From an uncultured Ruminococcus sp. (lineage in GTDB: Bacteria; Bacillota; Clostridia; Oscillospirales; Acutalibacteraceae), in contig CACYBZ010000278.1 in assembly GCA_902772795.1 (NCBI GenBank), forward strand, positions 1 through 12,887: DNA of 12,887 nucleotides. The letters run 5' to 3'. Within the stretch, counting starts at the first letter, position 1. The number at the start of each line of letters is the position of its first letter. This document shows, piece by piece, positions 433 to 8,910 of this stretch. The notes below the pieces were generated by a model. It was not told the DNA's origin. It saw only the letters and a list, made by a program, of their open reading frames with translations, and made no database searches. Position numbers and translations under genes: made by a program.

Positions 433-927
433 TTATTGTTGTTGCTTGTTATCATTTTTCTCGAAAACTTTGTCCAGTATTTCCCTTACAGCACCATTGC
501 CACCTTTATGTGTACACACATAGTCTGCTGTTTCAATGACACTCTTGACGGCATCATATGGACACGCTGAATATCCGCACTTTTTCATACATTCGATGTC
601 ATTTTCATCATCACCGATATATACCACTTCTGACCAGTCACAGCCGTATTTTTTTACAAGACTTTCCAGAACAACTACTTTATCTTTCACGCCTTGAAAA
701 ACTTCATCAATCGCTAAAACTTCCGCACGCTTTTCTACGATTCGGGAGTATCTTCCTGTAATGATGGCTGTTTTTATCCCATACATATGACATCTTGCCA
801 GAGCGTAACCGTCCTTTACATCGAATGCTTTCATCAGTTCACCGTCTGCCCCGACATATATCTTTCCGTCCGTCATTGTACCATCTACGTCCATGACGAA
901 AAGCTTTACCTCTTTCAATTCTGACAT
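433..927 (-). CDS. kdsC: 3-deoxy-D-manno-octulosonate 8-phosphate phosphatase (HAD family)
   Basis: Predicted to hydrolyse Kdo-8-phosphate to Kdo in the cytoplasm, the third step of CMP-Kdo synthesis. The 164-residue length is normal for KdsC, a small HAD phosphatase with no large cap domain. Visible motifs are DVDGT at 13-17 (nucleophile Asp13 and acid Asp15), the TGR motif at 57-59, GDDEND at 105-110, and a C-terminal GGNGAVRE (142-149) characteristic of Kdo8P phosphatases. I chose the ATG at 927 because AGGA lies 9 bases upstream; the ATG at 936 (three codons longer) has GAGG almost touching it. It follows the kdsD stop by about a dozen bases and is the last gene before the terminator. The Lys/Asn/Gln-rich tail after residue 155 is probably disordered. 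The context with kdsA, kdsB and kdsD makes the Kdo8P substrate likely. Confidence 0.93.
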   Translation of the reverse strand: MSELKEVKLFVMDVDGTMTDGKIYVGADGELMKAFDVKDGYALARCHMYGIKTAIITGRYSRIVEKRAEVLAIDEVFQGVKDKVVVLESLVKKYGCDWSEVVYIGDDENDIECMKKCGYSACPYDAVKSVIETADYVCTHKGGNGAVREILDKVFEKNDNKQQQ

Positions 928-939
928 AGTTATCATTCC

Positions 940-1917
940 TCACAAGACAATTCCCGCACTTGTAATATCATTAATTCTTATCGTACCTCTTAATATACCG
1001 TCATCTACCACGGGCAATGCAGAAATGTTATTGTCATTCATCTTTTTCAGTGCCTCTACCGCCAGAACACTGCTCTGAATCGTCATAGGTTTATTACTCA
1101 TCAGAGAATCAATATCTGCTGTATACACATCTATTTTTTCATTGCTCAATGCTCTTCGCAAATCGCCGTCCGTAAATACCCCTTTAAGTGTATCCCCGTC
1201 AATGATATTGACAATTCCCAGTGCCTTTTTACTCATTACCAGAATTGCATCACGCAACGAAGCTCCCGAACAGACTGTCGGATTTTCCTCTCCCTTGTGC
1301 ATGATATCGCTCACCGTGTATAGCAGTTTCTTTCCCAGTGCCCCCGCAGGGTGAAACAAGGCAAAATTTTCCTTGTTGAATCCGTAAATCCTGGAAGCAC
1401 ACACCGCCAGAGCATCACCGAACGCCAGTGCAACGGTTGTACTGGAAGTCGGAGCGAGGTTCATTGCACAGGCCTCTTTGAAAGGCGGAAACACAAAGTG
1501 ATAATCGCTGTTCTGAATCAATGTCGATGTCGGATTACCCGATATTCCTACCAGTGTTGCTCCGATAATTTTCAGGCTGGGAATCAGTCTGGTTACTTCC
1601 TCACTCTCTCCCGAAAAAGAAATCGCAATAACGACATCATCATTTCTTACCATACCCAAATCGCCATGCTGTGCCTCAGCAGGGTGCAGGAAAAAGGACG
1701 GTGTTCCCAGACTCGACATTGTTGCTGAAATCTTTGTACCGATATGTCCCGGCTTTCCCATGCCTGTAAGGATAACCTTTCCTTTACAGTTGACTATCAG
1801 TTCTACAATTCTGACAAAGTTCTCATCAAGAGCGTTCTTCGTGATTTCCAACGCTCTGATTTCCGTATCAAATAACTGTTTTCCTTCGGCTATAATGTCG
1901 ATATCATTCATCGTCAT
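940..1917 (-). CDS. kdsD: D-arabinose-5-phosphate isomerase (KpsF/GutQ family)
   Basis: Interconverts D-ribulose-5-phosphate and D-arabinose-5-phosphate, the first step of Kdo synthesis. The N-terminal SIS domain (about 35-175) holds GMGKPGHIG (52-60), EAQHGDLGM (81-89), the sugar-phosphate loop SFSGESEE (100-107) and FHPAGALG (188-195), with His84 and His189 as expected catalytic or ligand positions. Two CBS domains follow, about 204-260 and 271-325, as in full-length KdsD/KpsF. The 325-residue length fits the family. The reading frame is open further upstream (to 2043), but that part is the antisense-like overlap with kdsA and is not family sequence. Starts at 1917 (AGGG 6 bases upstream) and 1911 (GGCGG 9 bases upstream) are both possible; either overlaps the end of kdsA, which implies translational coupling. 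Confidence 0.93.
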   Translation of the reverse strand: MTMNDIDIIAEGKQLFDTEIRALEITKNALDENFVRIVELIVNCKGKVILTGMGKPGHIGTKISATMSSLGTPSFFLHPAEAQHGDLGMVRNDDVVIAISFSGESEEVTRLIPSLKIIGATLVGISGNPTSTLIQNSDYHFVFPPFKEACAMNLAPTSSTTVALAFGDALAVCASRIYGFNKENFALFHPAGALGKKLLYTVSDIMHKGEENPTVCSGASLRDAILVMSKKALGIVNIIDGDTLKGVFTDGDLRRALSNEKIDVYTADIDSLMSNKPMTIQSSVLAVEALKKMNDNNISALPVVDDGILRGTIRINDITSAGIVL

Positions 1918-2680
1918 GCACCGCCCTGTAAATTTTGATAAGTCGGATAAGCATTTCTTCCACCTTGTCAAGGTAGACCATGTTGGCACCGTCCGAAAGT
2001 GCATTTTCAGGGTCAGGGTGCGTTTCCATGAATATGCCGTCAACGCCTATGGCAATGGCGGATTTGGCAAGCGGTTCGGCAAAATCCCTGTTACCACCCG
2101 TGGCGTTGCCCTTACCACCCGGTTTCTGTACACTGTGGGTAGCGTCAAAGATAACGGGAAAACCAAATTTTTTCATTTCCACAAGACCTGTCATATCCAC
2201 CACAAGATTATTATACCCGAAACACGTTCCTCTTTCACACAACATCAGATTGCTGTTGATATCTTTGATTTTGTTGATACAGTTGACCATATCCCACGGG
2301 GCAAGAAACTGTGCTTTTTTGATGTTGATGGCTTTTCCTGTTTTTGCCGCTGCCACAAGCAAATCTGTCTGTCGGCAAAGAAAAGCAGGTATCTGCACGA
2401 TATCGGCTACCTGTCCCACCAGTTCCGCCTGACTGGGTTCGTGAATATCCGTAGCGATTTTTACCCCTACTTCTTCTTTGATATCGGCTAAAATCTGTAA
2501 TCCCTTTTCAAGACCGGGCCCTCTGTAACTTTTTATTGATGTTCTGTTTGCCTTGTCATAGGACGCTTTGAACGTAAAGGGTATACCTAATCTTTCTGTA
2601 ATATCTTTCAGATATTGGGCTATCATCTTGGCATTTTCTTTGGATTCGATGACGCAAGGCCCTGCTATCAGCTTGAACAT
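1904..2680 (-). CDS. kdsA: Kdo-8-phosphate synthase, metal-dependent (Cys) type
   Basis: Condenses phosphoenolpyruvate with D-arabinose-5-phosphate to Kdo-8-phosphate; a cytosolic TIM-barrel enzyme of the DAHP/Kdo8P synthase superfamily. At 258 residues it is near the short Aquifex-type length. Conserved blocks are IAGPC (5-9), FKASYDKANR (37-46), RGPGLE (53-58), QIPAFLCRQTDLL (96-108), FGYNNLVVDM (154-163), DATHSVQ (179-185) and FMETHPDPE (217-225). Metal-dependent enzymes carry Cys where E. coli KdsA has Asn. Here Cys9, His182, Glu219 and Asp230 match the metal ligands Cys11, His185, Glu222 and Asp233 known from Aquifex aeolicus, so this is a metalloenzyme. The ATG has GGAGAG 7 bases upstream, inside the end of kdsB. 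The stop of kdsB is one base away and the gene's own end overlaps kdsD. Confidence 0.96.
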   Translation of the reverse strand: MFKLIAGPCVIESKENAKMIAQYLKDITERLGIPFTFKASYDKANRTSIKSYRGPGLEKGLQILADIKEEVGVKIATDIHEPSQAELVGQVADIVQIPAFLCRQTDLLVAAAKTGKAINIKKAQFLAPWDMVNCINKIKDINSNLMLCERGTCFGYNNLVVDMTGLVEMKKFGFPVIFDATHSVQKPGGKGNATGGNRDFAEPLAKSAIAIGVDGIFMETHPDPENALSDGANMVYLDKVEEMLIRLIKIYRAVHDDE

Positions 2681-2681
2681 T

Positions 2682-3416
2682 TTAAATCTCTCCGTTCTTT
2701 CTGAGATATTCTTCTACCTTGGCAATATCTTTAGGGGTATCCACCGAAATAGTCTTGCAATGGGCATTGATATAGTAGATGTCTTTTCTGTTTTCGATAA
2801 AACGGAAAGAGTCATTTTCTTCTATTTTTTCGATAGGCCCTCTGGGGGTATCGTGATAGTACTGCAATGCTTTTTTCGTGAACGCTCCCACACCGACAAA
2901 TTTATGATAGGTATAGTTCATCGCCCCTTTTGGAAAAGGTATGGGACTTCTGGAAATGAACAGACAGATACCGTCCTTGTTGGTCACGATTTTCAGATTA
3001 GTGCTGTCAACCACTTCGACAGGGTCGCTGAAATCCGTCATCAGATTGGATACATAGAAATCGTTGGTATCAAGATTTTCGGGAATACACTGTACAATGG
3101 ATTCTTTTGTGATACAGGGCTCATCACCGTTGACCATGACATACAAATCCGCATCAATTTTCTGTGAAAACTCATACAGTCTTTCGGTAGCGGTTTCGTT
3201 ATCTTTTGATGTCATAACAACTTTGGCTCCGAACTGTTCAGCCATTGTCTGAATTTCTTCGCTGTCTGTTGCCACATAGACTTCTTCAAAACATTCTACT
3301 TCTTTGGCGTGTTTCCATACCCACCACAACATTGGTTTGTCAAAAATCATTTTGGTAGGTTTGTTGTAAAATCTTGTTGAACCGCCTCTGGCAGGTATCA
3401 TTCCGATGATTTTCAT
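2682..3416 (-). CDS. kdsB: CMP-Kdo synthetase (3-deoxy-manno-octulosonate cytidylyltransferase), divergent
   Basis: Predicted to activate Kdo with CTP to give CMP-Kdo, the donor for Kdo transfer. The 244-residue length matches KdsB, and the fold is a GT-A-like nucleotidyltransferase. Family blocks seen are IPARGGSTRF (7-16) with KP at 19-20, VYVATD (46-51), TATERL (75-80), NGDEP (96-100, canonical QGDEP), SRSPIPFP (155-162), HKFVGVGAF (171-179) and SVDTPKD (224-230). The segment after GPIEKIE (193-199) reads NDSFRFIE, where typical KdsB has a LEQLRxLE-like stretch, so this is a divergent subfamily. A related CMP-sugar synthetase cannot be excluded, but adjacency to kdsA strongly favours Kdo. 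The ribosome binding site is weak or long-spaced (AAGGA 14 bases upstream; GAG at 9). The hairpin repeat at 3442-3553 lies directly upstream. Confidence 0.85.
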   Translation of the reverse strand: MKIIGMIPARGGSTRFYNKPTKMIFDKPMLWWVWKHAKEVECFEEVYVATDSEEIQTMAEQFGAKVVMTSKDNETATERLYEFSQKIDADLYVMVNGDEPCITKESIVQCIPENLDTNDFYVSNLMTDFSDPVEVVDSTNLKIVTNKDGICLFISRSPIPFPKGAMNYTYHKFVGVGAFTKKALQYYHDTPRGPIEKIEENDSFRFIENRKDIYYINAHCKTISVDTPKDIAKVEEYLRKNGEI

Positions 3417-3441: not shown

Positions 3442-3553
3442 TTTAAGGGCTCCGCCCTTAAAAATCCCACAAGGGGCTTTGCCCCTTGACCCCACAAGCC
3501 TTTGAAAAGGCTTGACCGAAACTTTAAGGCAGAATTCGCTGTCACAAATTCCA
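3442..3553. repeat. Multi-hairpin interspersed repeat, copy 1
   Basis: Three perfect hairpins follow one another: a 9-bp stem at 3442-3450/3454-3462, an 8-bp stem at 3470-3477/3481-3488 and a 9-bp stem at 3495-3503/3506-3514. A degenerate fourth palindrome spans about 3532-3551. The 84 bases at 3442-3525 match the reverse complement of 5290-5373 with two differences and no gaps, so this is a dispersed repeat in inverted orientation relative to copy 2. It fills the gap between the stop codon at 3561 and the kdsB ribosome binding region. No open reading frame lies in it. It is neither a CRISPR (only two copies, no spacers) nor a clean terminator, since no T tract follows any stem on the minus strand. 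Confidence 0.9.
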
Positions 3554-3560
3554 CACCATT

Positions 3561-4343
3561 CTATTTTATCAGCGTATCAAGGTCGACTCTGGGAAATACC
3601 TCCAGCTTTCCTCCCCTTGTCGCATTATAGACTTTCATTCCTGCTTTGTCACAGGCTTCTTTCGCCTTTTCATATGACAGCGTGGAATAATAAAGATTGT
3701 GCACAACCTTATCGGCTACATCTTTATCATAATCTTCACAGAAATAATTCTTTACGGTGTTGTCAACTACCTTGTTACCGTCTTTGTCCGTCATGTTGCT
3801 GAAATTATGGTCGACACCTATCAGATACACTTCCGAAAATCCCATATAATAAGCAAGCTGTATACAGGTAATGGTAACTGTTCCCACACATTCCAGACAC
3901 TTTGAAGCGTCATAGGAAAAATCATGGTTGTTTTCTTTGAAATGAATGTTGAAATAATATGCATTGTCTATATTGACGCCATAGTACCATTTGAATACGG
4001 ACGGAATAAATTTGTATGCACATTCTATTGCATTGACATCATCTTCAATGTTTTCCATAATCACATTATCTTCGCAGATGTAAAATGTCGGTCGCCATTC
4101 TGTCTGTGGAAAAATCTTGAAAATTCGGTTCATACCGAAAGTATATTCCCCTCTTCGGTGAAGTATTGTCAAATCCTCCGCTTTCAGACTCGGCCCGTTA
4201 CCACAGATAAAACATCGTTTTCCCTGATATTTATTTTTCAGACCTGCCATTTTCTTTCCGTCTGCGAAATGTTCAAAATGTTCCTGCACAAAAGGTCTTG
4301 TTCTTGCATACAAAGAATCCTTTGCTCTGTTGACAATACTCAT
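3561..4343 (-). CDS. DUF115/GT42-like protein, candidate CMP-Kdo-using glycosyltransferase
   Basis: 260 residues, with no signal peptide or membrane segment. The N-terminal half has FICGNGPSL (45-53), then MNRIF (71-75); the middle has VGTVTITC (153-160) followed by MGFSEVYLIGVDHNF (167-181); the end has NATRGGKLEVFPRV (240-253). This order (GNGPSL, an Asn-Arg/Asn-Gln loop, a small helix, then G-V/I-D) is seen in DUF115 (MptE-like, PF01973) proteins and resembles the GT42 sialyltransferases such as CstII. DUF115 proteins of the Maf type are linked to transfer of nonulosonic acids from CMP donors. The ATG overlaps the preceding stop by 4 bases, with AAGGGG 8 bases upstream. Lying just upstream of kdsB, it is a reasonable candidate for the Kdo transferase, but that activity is inference. 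MptE-type pterin chemistry looks unlikely in this context. Confidence 0.75.
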   Translation of the reverse strand: MSIVNRAKDSLYARTRPFVQEHFEHFADGKKMAGLKNKYQGKRCFICGNGPSLKAEDLTILHRRGEYTFGMNRIFKIFPQTEWRPTFYICEDNVIMENIEDDVNAIECAYKFIPSVFKWYYGVNIDNAYYFNIHFKENNHDFSYDASKCLECVGTVTITCIQLAYYMGFSEVYLIGVDHNFSNMTDKDGNKVVDNTVKNYFCEDYDKDVADKVVHNLYYSTLSYEKAKEACDKAGMKVYNATRGGKLEVFPRVDLDTLIK

Positions 4344-5261: not shown

Positions 5262-5374
5262 AAAAATTTGCTGTCGCAAATTTTTCTTAAAAGTTTCGGT
5301 CAAGCCTTTTCAAAGGCTTGTGGGGTCAAGGGGCAAAGCCCCTTGCGGGATTTTTAAGGGCAGAGCCCTTAAAA
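5262..5374. repeat. Multi-hairpin interspersed repeat, copy 2
   Basis: Four perfect hairpins: 10-bp stem 5262-5271/5276-5285, 9-bp stem 5301-5309/5312-5320, 8-bp stem 5327-5334/5338-5345 and 10-bp stem 5352-5361/5365-5374. Its 5290-5373 part is the reverse complement of 3442-3525 with 82 of 84 bases identical. It starts one base after the stop codon of the gene ending at 5376 and ends 16 bases before the ATG of the next gene, so it fills the whole gap between them. The compact palindromic make-up resembles non-coding interspersed (MITE-like or REP-like) elements. No transposase gene or obvious target-site duplication was seen. Confidence 0.9.
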
Positions 5375-6359: not shown

Positions 6360-7340
6360 CTACATACCGTATTTCAGGATATTTCTGATATATGCCGTCA
6401 GCGACAATCCCCAGCCACTGTTGGACATCAGAAAACTCACTCTGTTCAACAGTGTCATACCGACAACATCTTTCCTGCAAAGATGTACTTCGCTTCGGTA
6501 CTGTCTGAGTTTTTTTCTGCCCTGTCCGTCTTTATCAATATTCTTATTTTTTAATATCATCTGATAATGATACAGACAGACTTCACAAAACGATAACTTC
6601 GTTTCCTGATAAATAGACGGATATTTTCTTTGGGTAAGCAACATTCTTTCCCGTACACCGTCTACCATGTCCAGTCTTCGCAAAGTGTACTTTCCCATAA
6701 TACTACCGCTTCTCTGGAAATAATAATAACATTCCCTGTGCAGATAAACAATGGTATCGGCTTTGTCCAGTATGCGGAACGTAAAAAATTCATCTTCGTT
6801 CAGCTTCCCTTTCAGAAAACGAAAACTGCCGATTAACTCTGCCCTATATAATTTATTCCATGCTGTGGTGCGTACCTTGGTATTCCCCACTGTGGTGAGT
6901 ATCGCCTGTTCAGCGTTCATTATCTCATAGTCTTCCGACAAGTTCGGGGTGAAGTCCTTTCCTTCGTAAACCCGAAGTACATTGAATGCCACTATCTGTG
7001 CATTACACGTCAGCATTTTCTCCATGGAAATTTCATATGTCTGCAGGTCTATCCAGTCATCACTGTCAATAAAACTGATATACGCTCCTGTCGCTATGTC
7101 AAGTCCCTTGTTTCTGGCATCGGATAACCCGCCGTTTTCTTTATGAATGACCTTTATTCTGCTGTCCTTTTTCTGAAAATCATCGCATATTTTCGGACAC
7201 CCGTCTGTTGAACCGTCATCTACAAGAATAATTTCCAGATGCGTATAAGTCTGACGGAGAATACTTTCCAGACATCTTTCCAGATAGTCTTCCACATTGT
7301 ACACAGGGATAATCACACTGATAAGCGGAGCGTTTTCCAT
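6360..7340 (-). CDS. Family 2 glycosyltransferase (GT-A)
   Basis: 326 residues, with a standard GT2 N-terminal domain: ISVIIPVYNVEDYLERCL (7-24), VDDGSTD (40-46), ENGGLSDARNKG (68-79) and DSDDW (92-96). Further on come AWNKLYRAEL, NEDEFF (probable general-base region) and RSGSIM, all usual for surface-glycan GT2 enzymes. The C-terminal part after about 240 is helical and of unknown role. It starts 3 bases after the previous stop; the GAGG likely used for initiation lies inside the end of the upstream gene, about 11 bases from the ATG. It shares layout and several motifs (NKLY, NED) with the next upstream gene, so the pair may be an old tandem duplication. Donor and acceptor are unknown. Confidence 0.9.
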   Translation of the reverse strand: MENAPLISVIIPVYNVEDYLERCLESILRQTYTHLEIILVDDGSTDGCPKICDDFQKKDSRIKVIHKENGGLSDARNKGLDIATGAYISFIDSDDWIDLQTYEISMEKMLTCNAQIVAFNVLRVYEGKDFTPNLSEDYEIMNAEQAILTTVGNTKVRTTAWNKLYRAELIGSFRFLKGKLNEDEFFTFRILDKADTIVYLHRECYYYFQRSGSIMGKYTLRRLDMVDGVRERMLLTQRKYPSIYQETKLSFCEVCLYHYQMILKNKNIDKDGQGRKKLRQYRSEVHLCRKDVVGMTLLNRVSFLMSNSGWGLSLTAYIRNILKYGM

Positions 7341-7343
7341 AAC

Positions 7344-8363
7344 TTATTTTACCTCATATTTTCTGTCGCTTTTGGTAACGGCAAAGTAACATTTATACAA
7401 CAGTCTGTAAACCAGCGGAATGTAAAAAATAAGAAAACAATCCATTTTCATTCTTTTGGTAAGTATTCCCAGTTGCTTTGCCTTTGTATAGTGCTTTCGG
7501 ATACTGGCTTTCACTTTGCCTTTTCTGTCCCCGAATTTTTTCGCTGACGGATTCGTCACCAGCGTGCGGTACAGACTGATGTTGTTCATCAGCAGTCCCG
7601 ATAATGCCATCTGATACAATTCTTCATCATTGTTTTCAAACAGATGCATGATCCTTTCTCTTACCGTAATGCCGTCAAACAACTTTTTTTCTGAAATCTC
7701 TGACGTTGCTGCTGAATTCTTACGCAGTATGTAATGATACAGCGGTTTGTCCTCAAAAACAGACTTTCGGGCATTGCGGAAAACTTCTACATTGAACAGA
7801 TAATCTTCGTTGATTTTAATATCCGATGCCATTCTTGTTTTTCCGATAACTTCACGGGTATAAAGCTTGTTCCATATTCCCGGTTCGACAAGATTGTTTC
7901 CTGACATCAGGTCTGTAAGTCCTCTGCGGTTGTCCTGTTCCCTGACCGTGCCTGTATTGAAATAATAGTCTACCCTCGACGGAAATACCATCTGATATCC
8001 GCAGTGGGAAATATCAGCGTTATACTGTAAAGCGTTGTCCAGCAGTATTTCAAACATATTCGGTTCGATATAGTCATCACCGTCTACAAATCCGACATAG
8101 TCCCCTTTCGCCCTGTCCAGTGCCTTGTTTCGGGTATCCGATACTCCCGAATTCCTCTTGAATATCGGTACAATCCTTTTGTCTTTCTTGGCGTATCTTC
8201 GGATAACATAGGCGGAATTGTCTGTTGAACCGTCATCAACCACGATGATTTCCAGATTTCTGTGCGTCTGGCTCAGTATACTGTCCAGACATCTCGGCAG
8301 ATACTGTTCGATATTATAAACGGGAACTATCACTGAAATTTTATAATCATTCTTATCTGACAT
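7344..8363 (-). CDS. Family 2 glycosyltransferase (GT-A)
   Basis: 339 residues. The GT2 core is seen in ISVIVPVYNIEQYLPRCL (9-26), VVDDGSTDNS (41-50), NSGVSDTRNK (71-80) and DGDDY (94-98), followed by IWNKLYTREVIG and KINEDYLF. The closing region after about 275 is basic and includes a hydrophobic stretch, FLIFYIPLVYRLLY, that may touch the membrane. The start overlaps the acyltransferase gene by 11 bases; the nearest purine-rich signal, GGTG about 6 bases upstream, is weak, so coupling to the upstream gene is likely. It is probably one of the enzymes building the oligosaccharide unit; the specific sugar is not predictable. Confidence 0.9.
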   Translation of the reverse strand: MSDKNDYKISVIVPVYNIEQYLPRCLDSILSQTHRNLEIIVVDDGSTDNSAYVIRRYAKKDKRIVPIFKRNSGVSDTRNKALDRAKGDYVGFVDGDDYIEPNMFEILLDNALQYNADISHCGYQMVFPSRVDYYFNTGTVREQDNRRGLTDLMSGNNLVEPGIWNKLYTREVIGKTRMASDIKINEDYLFNVEVFRNARKSVFEDKPLYHYILRKNSAATSEISEKKLFDGITVRERIMHLFENNDEELYQMALSGLLMNNISLYRTLVTNPSAKKFGDRKGKVKASIRKHYTKAKQLGILTKRMKMDCFLIFYIPLVYRLLYKCYFAVTKSDRKYEVK

Positions 8364-8910
8364 AGCCTACACCGTTGTTTTCTCTGAGTTTCGCCAGCAT
8401 TTCCTGCTTCTTGCTGTCGTCAAATCCGCTGTCCCTCATCGTATAGGTTTCATCAAATCTGACGGTATGTTCCATTTCCTGCTGTCTTTTTTTCATGAAT
8501 TCCTCATAGGTACTGATTACCCTCGCCGGATTGCCTGCCACTACACGATTATCGGGTATACTTTTTGTTACAACACTTCCTGCCCCTATCACTACCTTAC
8601 TGCCTATGGAAACCCCCGGCAAAATCACACTTTCTGCACCTACAAATACATCACTGCCTATACTGACCATACCTATTCTGGTATAACCTGTTTCGTTTTT
8701 TGTACTCGCATCGTGAGCCAGTACATGAGCCCTCGGGGCAATCGTTACATTGTCTCCTATTGTGATGAGCCAGCAATGCGAATCATCAATAATCACTCCG
8801 CTGAAACGATTGAAATTCTTTCCTACTTTCAGCCCGTTCCGTATCAGAACCTCTGTCGGAACTTCTCCCCTTAATTTATACAACAAGGATTTTATACCCA
8901 ATCTTTTCAA
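8353..8910 (-). CDS. Hexapeptide-repeat (left-handed beta helix) O-acetyltransferase-like
   Basis: 185 residues of the acyltransferase hexapeptide type, likely using acetyl-CoA to acetylate a sugar of the glycan in the cytoplasm. The repeats are visible as IGDNVTIAP (51-59), IGSDVFVG (84-91), ILPGVSIGSKVVIGAGSVV (96-114) and the closing GNPARVI (126-132); the presumed catalytic His66 sits in LAHDAS (64-69). WcaF/maltose-acetyltransferase-like proteins share this arrangement. The start codon appears to be TTG at 8910, overlapping the GT4 stop TGA by 4 bases (TTGA), with GGAAAGGA just upstream. A second TTG at codon 4 has AAGGA about 10 bases upstream and is a possible alternative. No ATG gives a proper N-terminus. 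The last ~40 residues are charged and helical, outside the beta helix. Confidence 0.88.
   Translation of the reverse strand: MKRLGIKSLLYKLRGEVPTEVLIRNGLKVGKNFNRFSGVIIDDSHCWLITIGDNVTIAPRAHVLAHDASTKNETGYTRIGMVSIGSDVFVGAESVILPGVSIGSKVVIGAGSVVTKSIPDNRVVAGNPARVISTYEEFMKKRQQEMEHTVRFDETYTMRDSGFDDSKKQEMLAKLRENNGVGYVR

Follow-up and report, generated by a model that had tools for sequence, protein, structure and literature searches.

Organization of the operon

The window analyzed here, a 12,887-nucleotide stretch of DNA from an uncultured Ruminococcus sp. (assembly GCA_902772795.1, contig CACYBZ010000278.1, here C278), carries one minus-strand operon of 13 genes, which encode, in order, a pyruvyl transferase, Wzx, a GT4 glycosyltransferase, a hexapeptide acyltransferase, two GT2 glycosyltransferases, a PF05704 protein, a third GT2, a DUF115 protein, KdsB, KdsA, KdsD, and KdsC. 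Our subject is the DUF115 (PF01973) gene (3561..4343, minus strand, ATG start), whose 260-residue product we propose as a transferase of cytidine monophosphate-activated 3-deoxy-D-manno-oct-2-ulosonic acid (CMP-Kdo), predicted to be inverting and to form alpha-Kdo. The CMP-Kdo synthetase gene kdsB (2682..3416) starts 144 bp downstream and is followed by kdsA (Kdo-8-phosphate synthase, 1904..2680), kdsD/kpsF (arabinose-5-phosphate isomerase, 940..1917), and kdsC (Kdo-8-phosphate phosphatase, 433..936), all on the minus strand. KdsA exceeded its NCBIfam equivalog cut-off (TIGR01362, 397.3 bits against 314), and KdsD (TIGR00393, 308.9 against 203.7), KdsC (TIGR01670, 161.9 against 106.95), and KdsB (PRK05450.1-5, 216.8 bits against 193) exceeded subfamily cut-offs; KdsB fell under the TIGR00466 equivalog cut-off (122.1 against 155.2). 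With these family matches, the predicted CMP-Kdo pathway of the operon is complete on paper.

The first-pass annotation of this DNA had reported no GT30 or KpsC/KpsS gene in the window, and had proposed the DUF115 protein as a CMP-Kdo transferase of a new type, related to GT42 and Maf. A Pfam scan of all 13 operon proteins agreed on the first point, with no match to PF04413 (GT30) or PF05159 (GT107, KpsC/KpsS) in the DUF115 protein or in any other.

Sequence family and predicted fold of the DUF115 protein

The DUF115 protein belongs to PF01973 (60.7 bits against a curated cut-off of 34.6), a family that the annotation had named for a profile search, and this was its sole Pfam family at E ≤ 0.001; the GT42 Pfam family had no match in it, nor did any NCBIfam family at E ≤ 0.001. 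The two blocks that had drawn attention to the gene directly upstream of kdsB are indeed present, GNGPSL at residues 48-53 and GVDHNF at residues 176-181. At least 3865 related proteins occur in a large collection, and the 120 listed have 49-88% identity. Across the 54 near relatives whose alignment makes up our A1 profile, the blocks GNGPSL, ED, GTVT, YLxGVDHN, and NATRGGKLE are kept, and N49 to L53, G176, and D178 are invariant. Conservation extended to a wider set of 71 proteins (five further proteins of at least 320 residues had been taken out before residues were counted), where G50, P51, S52, D92, G176, D178, N240, and R243 were each found in 71/71 and N49 in 69/71. In a tree of 76 proteins, from which the L043, L076, and L078 proteins (> 420 residues) were excluded, the Kdo label changed 8 times compared to 17.2 in shuffles, and the label for the aldolase-type clusters described below 15 times compared to 23.5. 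The window protein falls in a starred group of five with the Kdo loci L003-L005 and L002, the contig of the last stopping right after its DUF115 gene.

The predicted model of the protein was confident (predicted local distance difference test, pLDDT, 90.2; predicted template modeling score, pTM, 0.89). Foldseek ranked CstII first (E 1.8e-4), and VIA-align gave the highest score to Maf (13.7), followed by CstI (12.4), CstII (12.3), HPPK (10.9), a Pasteurella sialyltransferase (10.2), and human ST8SiaIII (8.8). The model thus shares its fold with both CstI/CstII (GT42) and the central domain of Maf, the two comparisons that the annotation had suggested. This is a fold of CMP-ulosonate transferases, and it gives no ground for the annotation's counter-case of a structure lacking a CMP pocket. 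The fold by itself is no proof of function, because HPPK has it too, and the absence of GT99 and KpsC structures from the VIA-align matches listed rules neither out. A single-sequence search of the PDB with the DUF115 protein returned no match, and a profile search returned only Maf (E 0.0047) and one unrelated chain (E 0.5).

Gene neighborhoods of relatives

Gene neighborhoods were read around the best 80 of 565 relatives in a genome collection; 78 of these loci had a readable gene (L023 and L058, with no open reading frame (ORF), were dropped), and contig ends cut some of them. The next same-strand downstream ORF was a PF02348 cytidylyltransferase in 40 of 74 loci. Counted by BLAST labels, a cytidylyltransferase came next downstream in 35/76 loci, where random gene order expects 5.4 (standard deviation 2.2), kinship among loci not being removed. 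In 13 of the 78 loci, a KdsB 77-96% identical to that of the window lies directly downstream and is followed by KdsA, KdsD, and KdsC; this conserved operon reaches from Oscillospiraceae to nine Bacillaceae/Paenibacillaceae loci. KdsA was found within 9 kb in 21/78.

A second type of neighborhood pairs DUF115 and a cytidylyltransferase with an HMGL/4-hydroxy-2-oxovalerate-aldolase-like protein, often together with a HAD phosphatase. HMGL-like proteins occur in 30/78 loci, 29 of them without KdsA and one (L036) beside it, and 21 of the 29 carry a KdsC-like or HAD phosphatase by BLAST label. Examples without KdsA are L010:10777-13952, L019:10771-13641, L046:10783-13821, and L056:10793-13030, with 25 more loci of this type. 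The aldolase-like proteins have 342 or about 540 residues. Those of the four example loci exceed the PF00682 cut-off and resemble 4-hydroxy-2-oxovalerate aldolase by score, but remain far under the cut-off of that family; at least 4420 proteins of the collection are related to the 541-residue protein of L019. These gene contents suggest a candidate undescribed CMP-ulosonate pathway, and a literature search on the cluster found no description. DUF115 keeps company with a synthetase even though the sugar-making enzymes differ, which is an argument for its use of a CMP-sugar.

Other arrangements were seen among the relatives. Five Bacillaceae loci (L035, L036, L037, L039, and L072) have two more DUF115 genes in tandem after kdsC, giving three per locus, with one unlabelled ORF interposed in this stretch at L035. 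At L031:9989-14595 and L086:8425-12670, a short PseF-like cytidylyltransferase replaces KdsB ahead of KdsA-KdsD-KdsC, so that synthetase type and sugar-making genes seem to have been recombined. Four Bacteroidota loci (L017, L021, L025, and L029) carry, within 5 kb of DUF115, a KdsB 74-75% and a KdsD 39-43% identical to those of the window, which suggests transfer between phyla.

Canonical Kdo transferases in genomes

The source of the window is a 2.24-Mb metagenome-assembled genome (MAG; 84.6% complete, 6.6% contamination, 480 contigs). The annotation had allowed for a canonical Kdo transferase just outside the window; no GT30 or PF05159 match was found elsewhere in this incomplete MAG, in a search that did not extend to GT99, GT140, GT52, GT80, or GT38. 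In a locus-based set of 49 genomes (this MAG plus the genomes that contain 48 of the 80 related loci), KdsA exceeded its cut-off in 26, GT30 occurred in one (L068), and PF05159 in none. PF02348 was set aside as a genome-wide marker, being present in 48/48 genomes and thus uninformative.

Since locus-based sets had been picked for DUF115, evenly drawn samples of 398 genomes (phylum sample) and 391 genomes (class sample) were added. KdsA was present in 37/398 genomes of the phylum sample and GT30 in 34 of those 37, the remainder being the window MAG, G316, and G355. Both G316 and G355 have PF05159 and no A1 match at E ≤ 1e-25. In G316, the genes run X-kdsB-kdsA-kdsD-kdsC with a PF05159 gene as X, immediately before kdsB, in the same slot that DUF115 occupies in the window. 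The kdsB-kdsA-kdsD-kdsC genes of G316 (L082:3013-11413) are flanked by three PF05159 proteins, and GT30 had no match in this genome; by gene content, this is a KpsC-type Kdo system within the same phylum. In G355, a PF05159 gene lies ~10 kb away from kdsA, and no transferase was seen within the first 18 kb read (five non-kds ORFs scanned).

The A1 profile at E ≤ 1e-25 matched 1/398 genomes, so the phylum sample says little about co-occurrence of DUF115 and KdsA, and the class sample was used instead. Here KdsA was found in 3/391 genomes and a DUF115 relative (E ≤ 1e-8) in 19/391; all three KdsA genomes were among these 19, with the genes at most 6 kb apart, and 16 genomes had a DUF115 relative without a KdsA match. 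Without the window genome, this amounts to 2/2 versus 18/390 (chance ~0.002, hand arithmetic). No GT30 or PF05159 was found in G633 and G674; G633 has two longer DUF115 genes (436 and 438 residues), the first scoring 43.9 bits with PF01973. Across 39 distinct KdsA genomes, GT30 occurred in 34 (in which PF05159 was not sought), PF05159 in 2, and DUF115 in 3, leaving none without a candidate.

Comparison with known systems

The best structural match, Maf (Magnetospirillum 5mu5, C. botulinum, Geobacillus), has the PF01973 central domain in common with the window protein. Maf has three domains (a 666-residue PDB chain) and places nonulosonic acids onto flagellin Ser/Thr, whereas the window protein has a single domain of 260 residues, is encoded in a polysaccharide operon that brings its own Kdo genes, and shows neither the three-domain architecture nor a flagellin locus. 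CstI and CstII of GT42 are 14-16% identical to it in structural alignment; the window protein also lacks a GT42 Pfam match, and its H215, discussed below, varies among wider relatives. In E. coli 536, which we take to be a K15 strain, a 212-residue ORF at the position of K15 ORF4 matches the A1 profile (98%, E 2e-13, 196 columns), with 22% identity and a PF01973 match under the cut-off, and shares N49, D92, D178, and N240. It has the same predicted fold and donor as the window protein, but it is shorter, its function is likewise predicted only, and its capsule cluster is of the ABC-transporter type and holds KpsC/KpsS as well. GT30 WaaA, GT107 KpsC/KpsS (PF05159), GT99, and GT140 use the same donor, CMP-Kdo, and are different protein families from DUF115.

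C. botulinum Maf is reported to put Kdo as well as Neu5Ac (N-acetylneuraminic acid) on flagellin in E. coli, CMP-Kdo not being its native donor, and the same paper cites Geobacillus Maf as able to take both (PMC11339370). For the K15 capsule, PMC7387560 assigns an alpha-Kdo repeat and predicted in 2020, by fold recognition, that ORF4 is a Maf/CstII-like alpha-Kdo transferase; the paper describing GT140 places K15 among beta-Kdo capsules (PMC12887879), and the K15 anomer is therefore disputed. PMC12887879 also presents GT99, GT107, and GT140 as retaining, beta-forming Kdo transferases, alike in structure and with a CMP-binding motif common to sialyltransferase families. Gonococcal Lst transfers Kdo in place of Neu5Ac (PMC8092323), and plant GT29 RCKT1/MGP2 is a likely Kdo transferase for which a review calls for bioassays (PMC12168206); both are sialyltransferase-type with CMP-Kdo, as here, but belong to other sequence families and other organisms. 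Kdo genes were noted as unexpected in a Bacillus for B. coahuilensis, there with a gene called kpsC (PMC4744853), and the CMP-legionaminate transferase of B. subtilis is given as unknown in PMC7439481. The passages on Acinetobacter KdoT in PMC12856342 name no fold for that enzyme. Literature searches under DUF115, MptE-like, PF01973, and Maf, with most subscription journals outside their reach, found no further report of a Kdo transferase. Given C. botulinum Maf and K15 ORF4, a DUF115 Kdo transferase is not a wholly new type: the function guessed in the first-pass annotation is well supported, and its "new type" was overstated, since a Maf using CMP-Kdo and the K15 prediction are already in print.

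Other genes of the operon

The remaining genes, all on the minus strand, encode a GT2 glycosyltransferase (PF00535, 4340..5245), whose stop overlaps the DUF115 start by 4 bp, a glycosyltransferase-like capsular polysaccharide synthesis protein (PF05704, 5376..6344), two further GT2 glycosyltransferases (6360..7340 and 7344..8363) and a hexapeptide acyltransferase (8353..8910) assigned by Pfam scan, a GT4-type glycosyltransferase (PF00534, 8907..10031), a Wzx-type flippase (PF01943, 10104..11534), and a polysaccharide pyruvyl transferase (PF04230, 11601..12695), for which the ORF as listed reaches 12839 and the start is a guess. The gap between the DUF115 gene and kdsB holds three short perfect inverted repeats (3442-3514), whose core GGGCAAAGCCCCTT has a further copy on the opposite strand at 5331-5344 (2 matches versus 0.01 expected); these are possibly a dispersed palindromic repeat.

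Proposed role and alternatives

We consider it quite likely that Kdo is transferred from CMP-Kdo by the DUF115 protein, in the assembly of a Wzx-dependent surface polysaccharide of this member of Clostridia. The predicted fold, the absence of any GT30 or PF05159 match, the conservation of the operon, and the KpsC-like gene in the same position in another genome support this functional guess well. The protein, a relative of Maf and GT42 with one domain, probably forms alpha linkages. KdsD, KdsA, KdsC, and KdsB would produce CMP-beta-Kdo; the DUF115 protein would hold the CMP moiety in a putative pocket of Rossmann type, with GNGPSL and GVDHNF as its lining, and may transfer Kdo to a lipid-linked oligosaccharide built by the GT2, GT4, and PF05704 enzymes, and Wzx would export the product. 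GT42 enzymes invert, and by analogy with them a single inverting displacement would be expected. Its product would be alpha-linked Kdo, in contrast to the beta-Kdo formed by the retaining families GT99, GT107, and GT140.

Several observations weigh against this role. H215, invariant in the 54 near relatives, is a tempting counterpart of what we take to be the catalytic His of GT42/CstII, but the wider set has His in 21/71 and Pro in 31/71, the Kdo loci L034 and L020 being among those with Pro; the equivalence was dropped on account of this variation. Residue 181 is Phe in 18/19 Kdo-labelled and Tyr in 24/28 aldolase-labelled proteins, and its use as a donor reader was likewise dropped, as only three independent pairs stand on supported branches, the pattern is not significant given the tree, and it is indistinguishable from shared descent. 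A canonical Kdo transferase could be absent merely from the assembly, given the completeness of the MAG. GT30 coexists with a DUF115 relative in the L068 genome, a Phascolarctobacterium and presumably a diderm, and 12 further locus genomes add GT30 in six (L025, L029, L043, L067, L070, and L078; Bacteroidota, Synergistota, and Alphaproteobacteria) and PF05159 in one of nine (L076), so DUF115 relatives of other phyla do coexist with canonical Kdo transferases. Three DUF115-type genomes stand behind the sampled comparison, and in G674 several genes separate DUF115 from the synthetase. The annotation had also counted homologs common without kds genes against its proposal, and 57/78 loci, some cut by contig ends, do lack KdsA within 9 kb: most DUF115 relatives are not linked to Kdo, although 29 of these loci carry the other CMP-sugar-type module. 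With so many homologs outside Kdo loci and this second module, "CMP-ulosonate transferases" is the better name for the family, some members being Kdo-dedicated.

It is unlikely that another glycosyltransferase of the operon (the GT4, one of the three GT2, or PF05704) transfers Kdo while DUF115 acts on another nucleotide-activated group. The operon does hold five other glycosyltransferase-type genes, but none of GT2, GT4, and PF05704 is known to us to include a CMP-Kdo transferase, and DUF115 tracks the CMP-sugar synthetase across families, at 40/74 next-gene positions (the other operon genes were not counted likewise), a pairing that persists even where the sugar-making genes differ greatly. 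We give an equally low chance to a retaining DUF115 protein, which would form beta-Kdo via a covalent adduct as do GT99, GT107, and GT140, families with a QXXXD motif: D92 and D178 are invariant in all 71 relatives, but the best fold matches are Maf and the inverting GT42. On this question, the motif that retaining Kdo families share with sialyltransferases (PMC12887879) favors retention, and the alpha-Kdo product given for the K15 relative (PMC7387560) opposes it, though the former source lists K15 as beta. Least probable of all is a PF01973 protein that is no glycosyltransferase, such as an MptE-like pterin diphosphokinase, placed in the operon by chance; HPPK has the fold, but Maf and CstI score higher in the structure comparison, and CMP-sugar synthetases accompany DUF115 far more often than random gene order would give.

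We tentatively advance a broader scheme, to which we give somewhat less than even weight. A small PF01973 family may serve bacterial surface polysaccharides, chiefly in Bacillota, as a general transferase for CMP-ulosonates, moving as a cassette together with the donor pathway present in each case: the classical kdsB-A-D-C in the case of Kdo, or an undescribed combination of cytidylyltransferase, HMGL/4-hydroxy-2-oxovalerate-aldolase-like enzyme, and HAD phosphatase that would build another 3-deoxy-ulosonic acid from pyruvate, not phosphoenolpyruvate. The window protein would then be Kdo-dedicated and found a new inverting alpha-Kdo transferase family.

Biological significance

Kdo is usually taken as a hallmark of the Gram-negative outer membrane. 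If the proposed role is true, Kdo would be possible in Gram-positive surface polysaccharides, given full Kdo operons with a built-in transferase in Oscillospiraceae and Bacillaceae, and it would be attached by a sialyltransferase-like type of transferase not yet shown with Kdo as its own donor. For capsule alpha-Kdo transferases not yet assigned, DUF115 offers a candidate family, and the aldolase-type clusters hint at an additional CMP-activated sugar acid of gut and soil bacteria.
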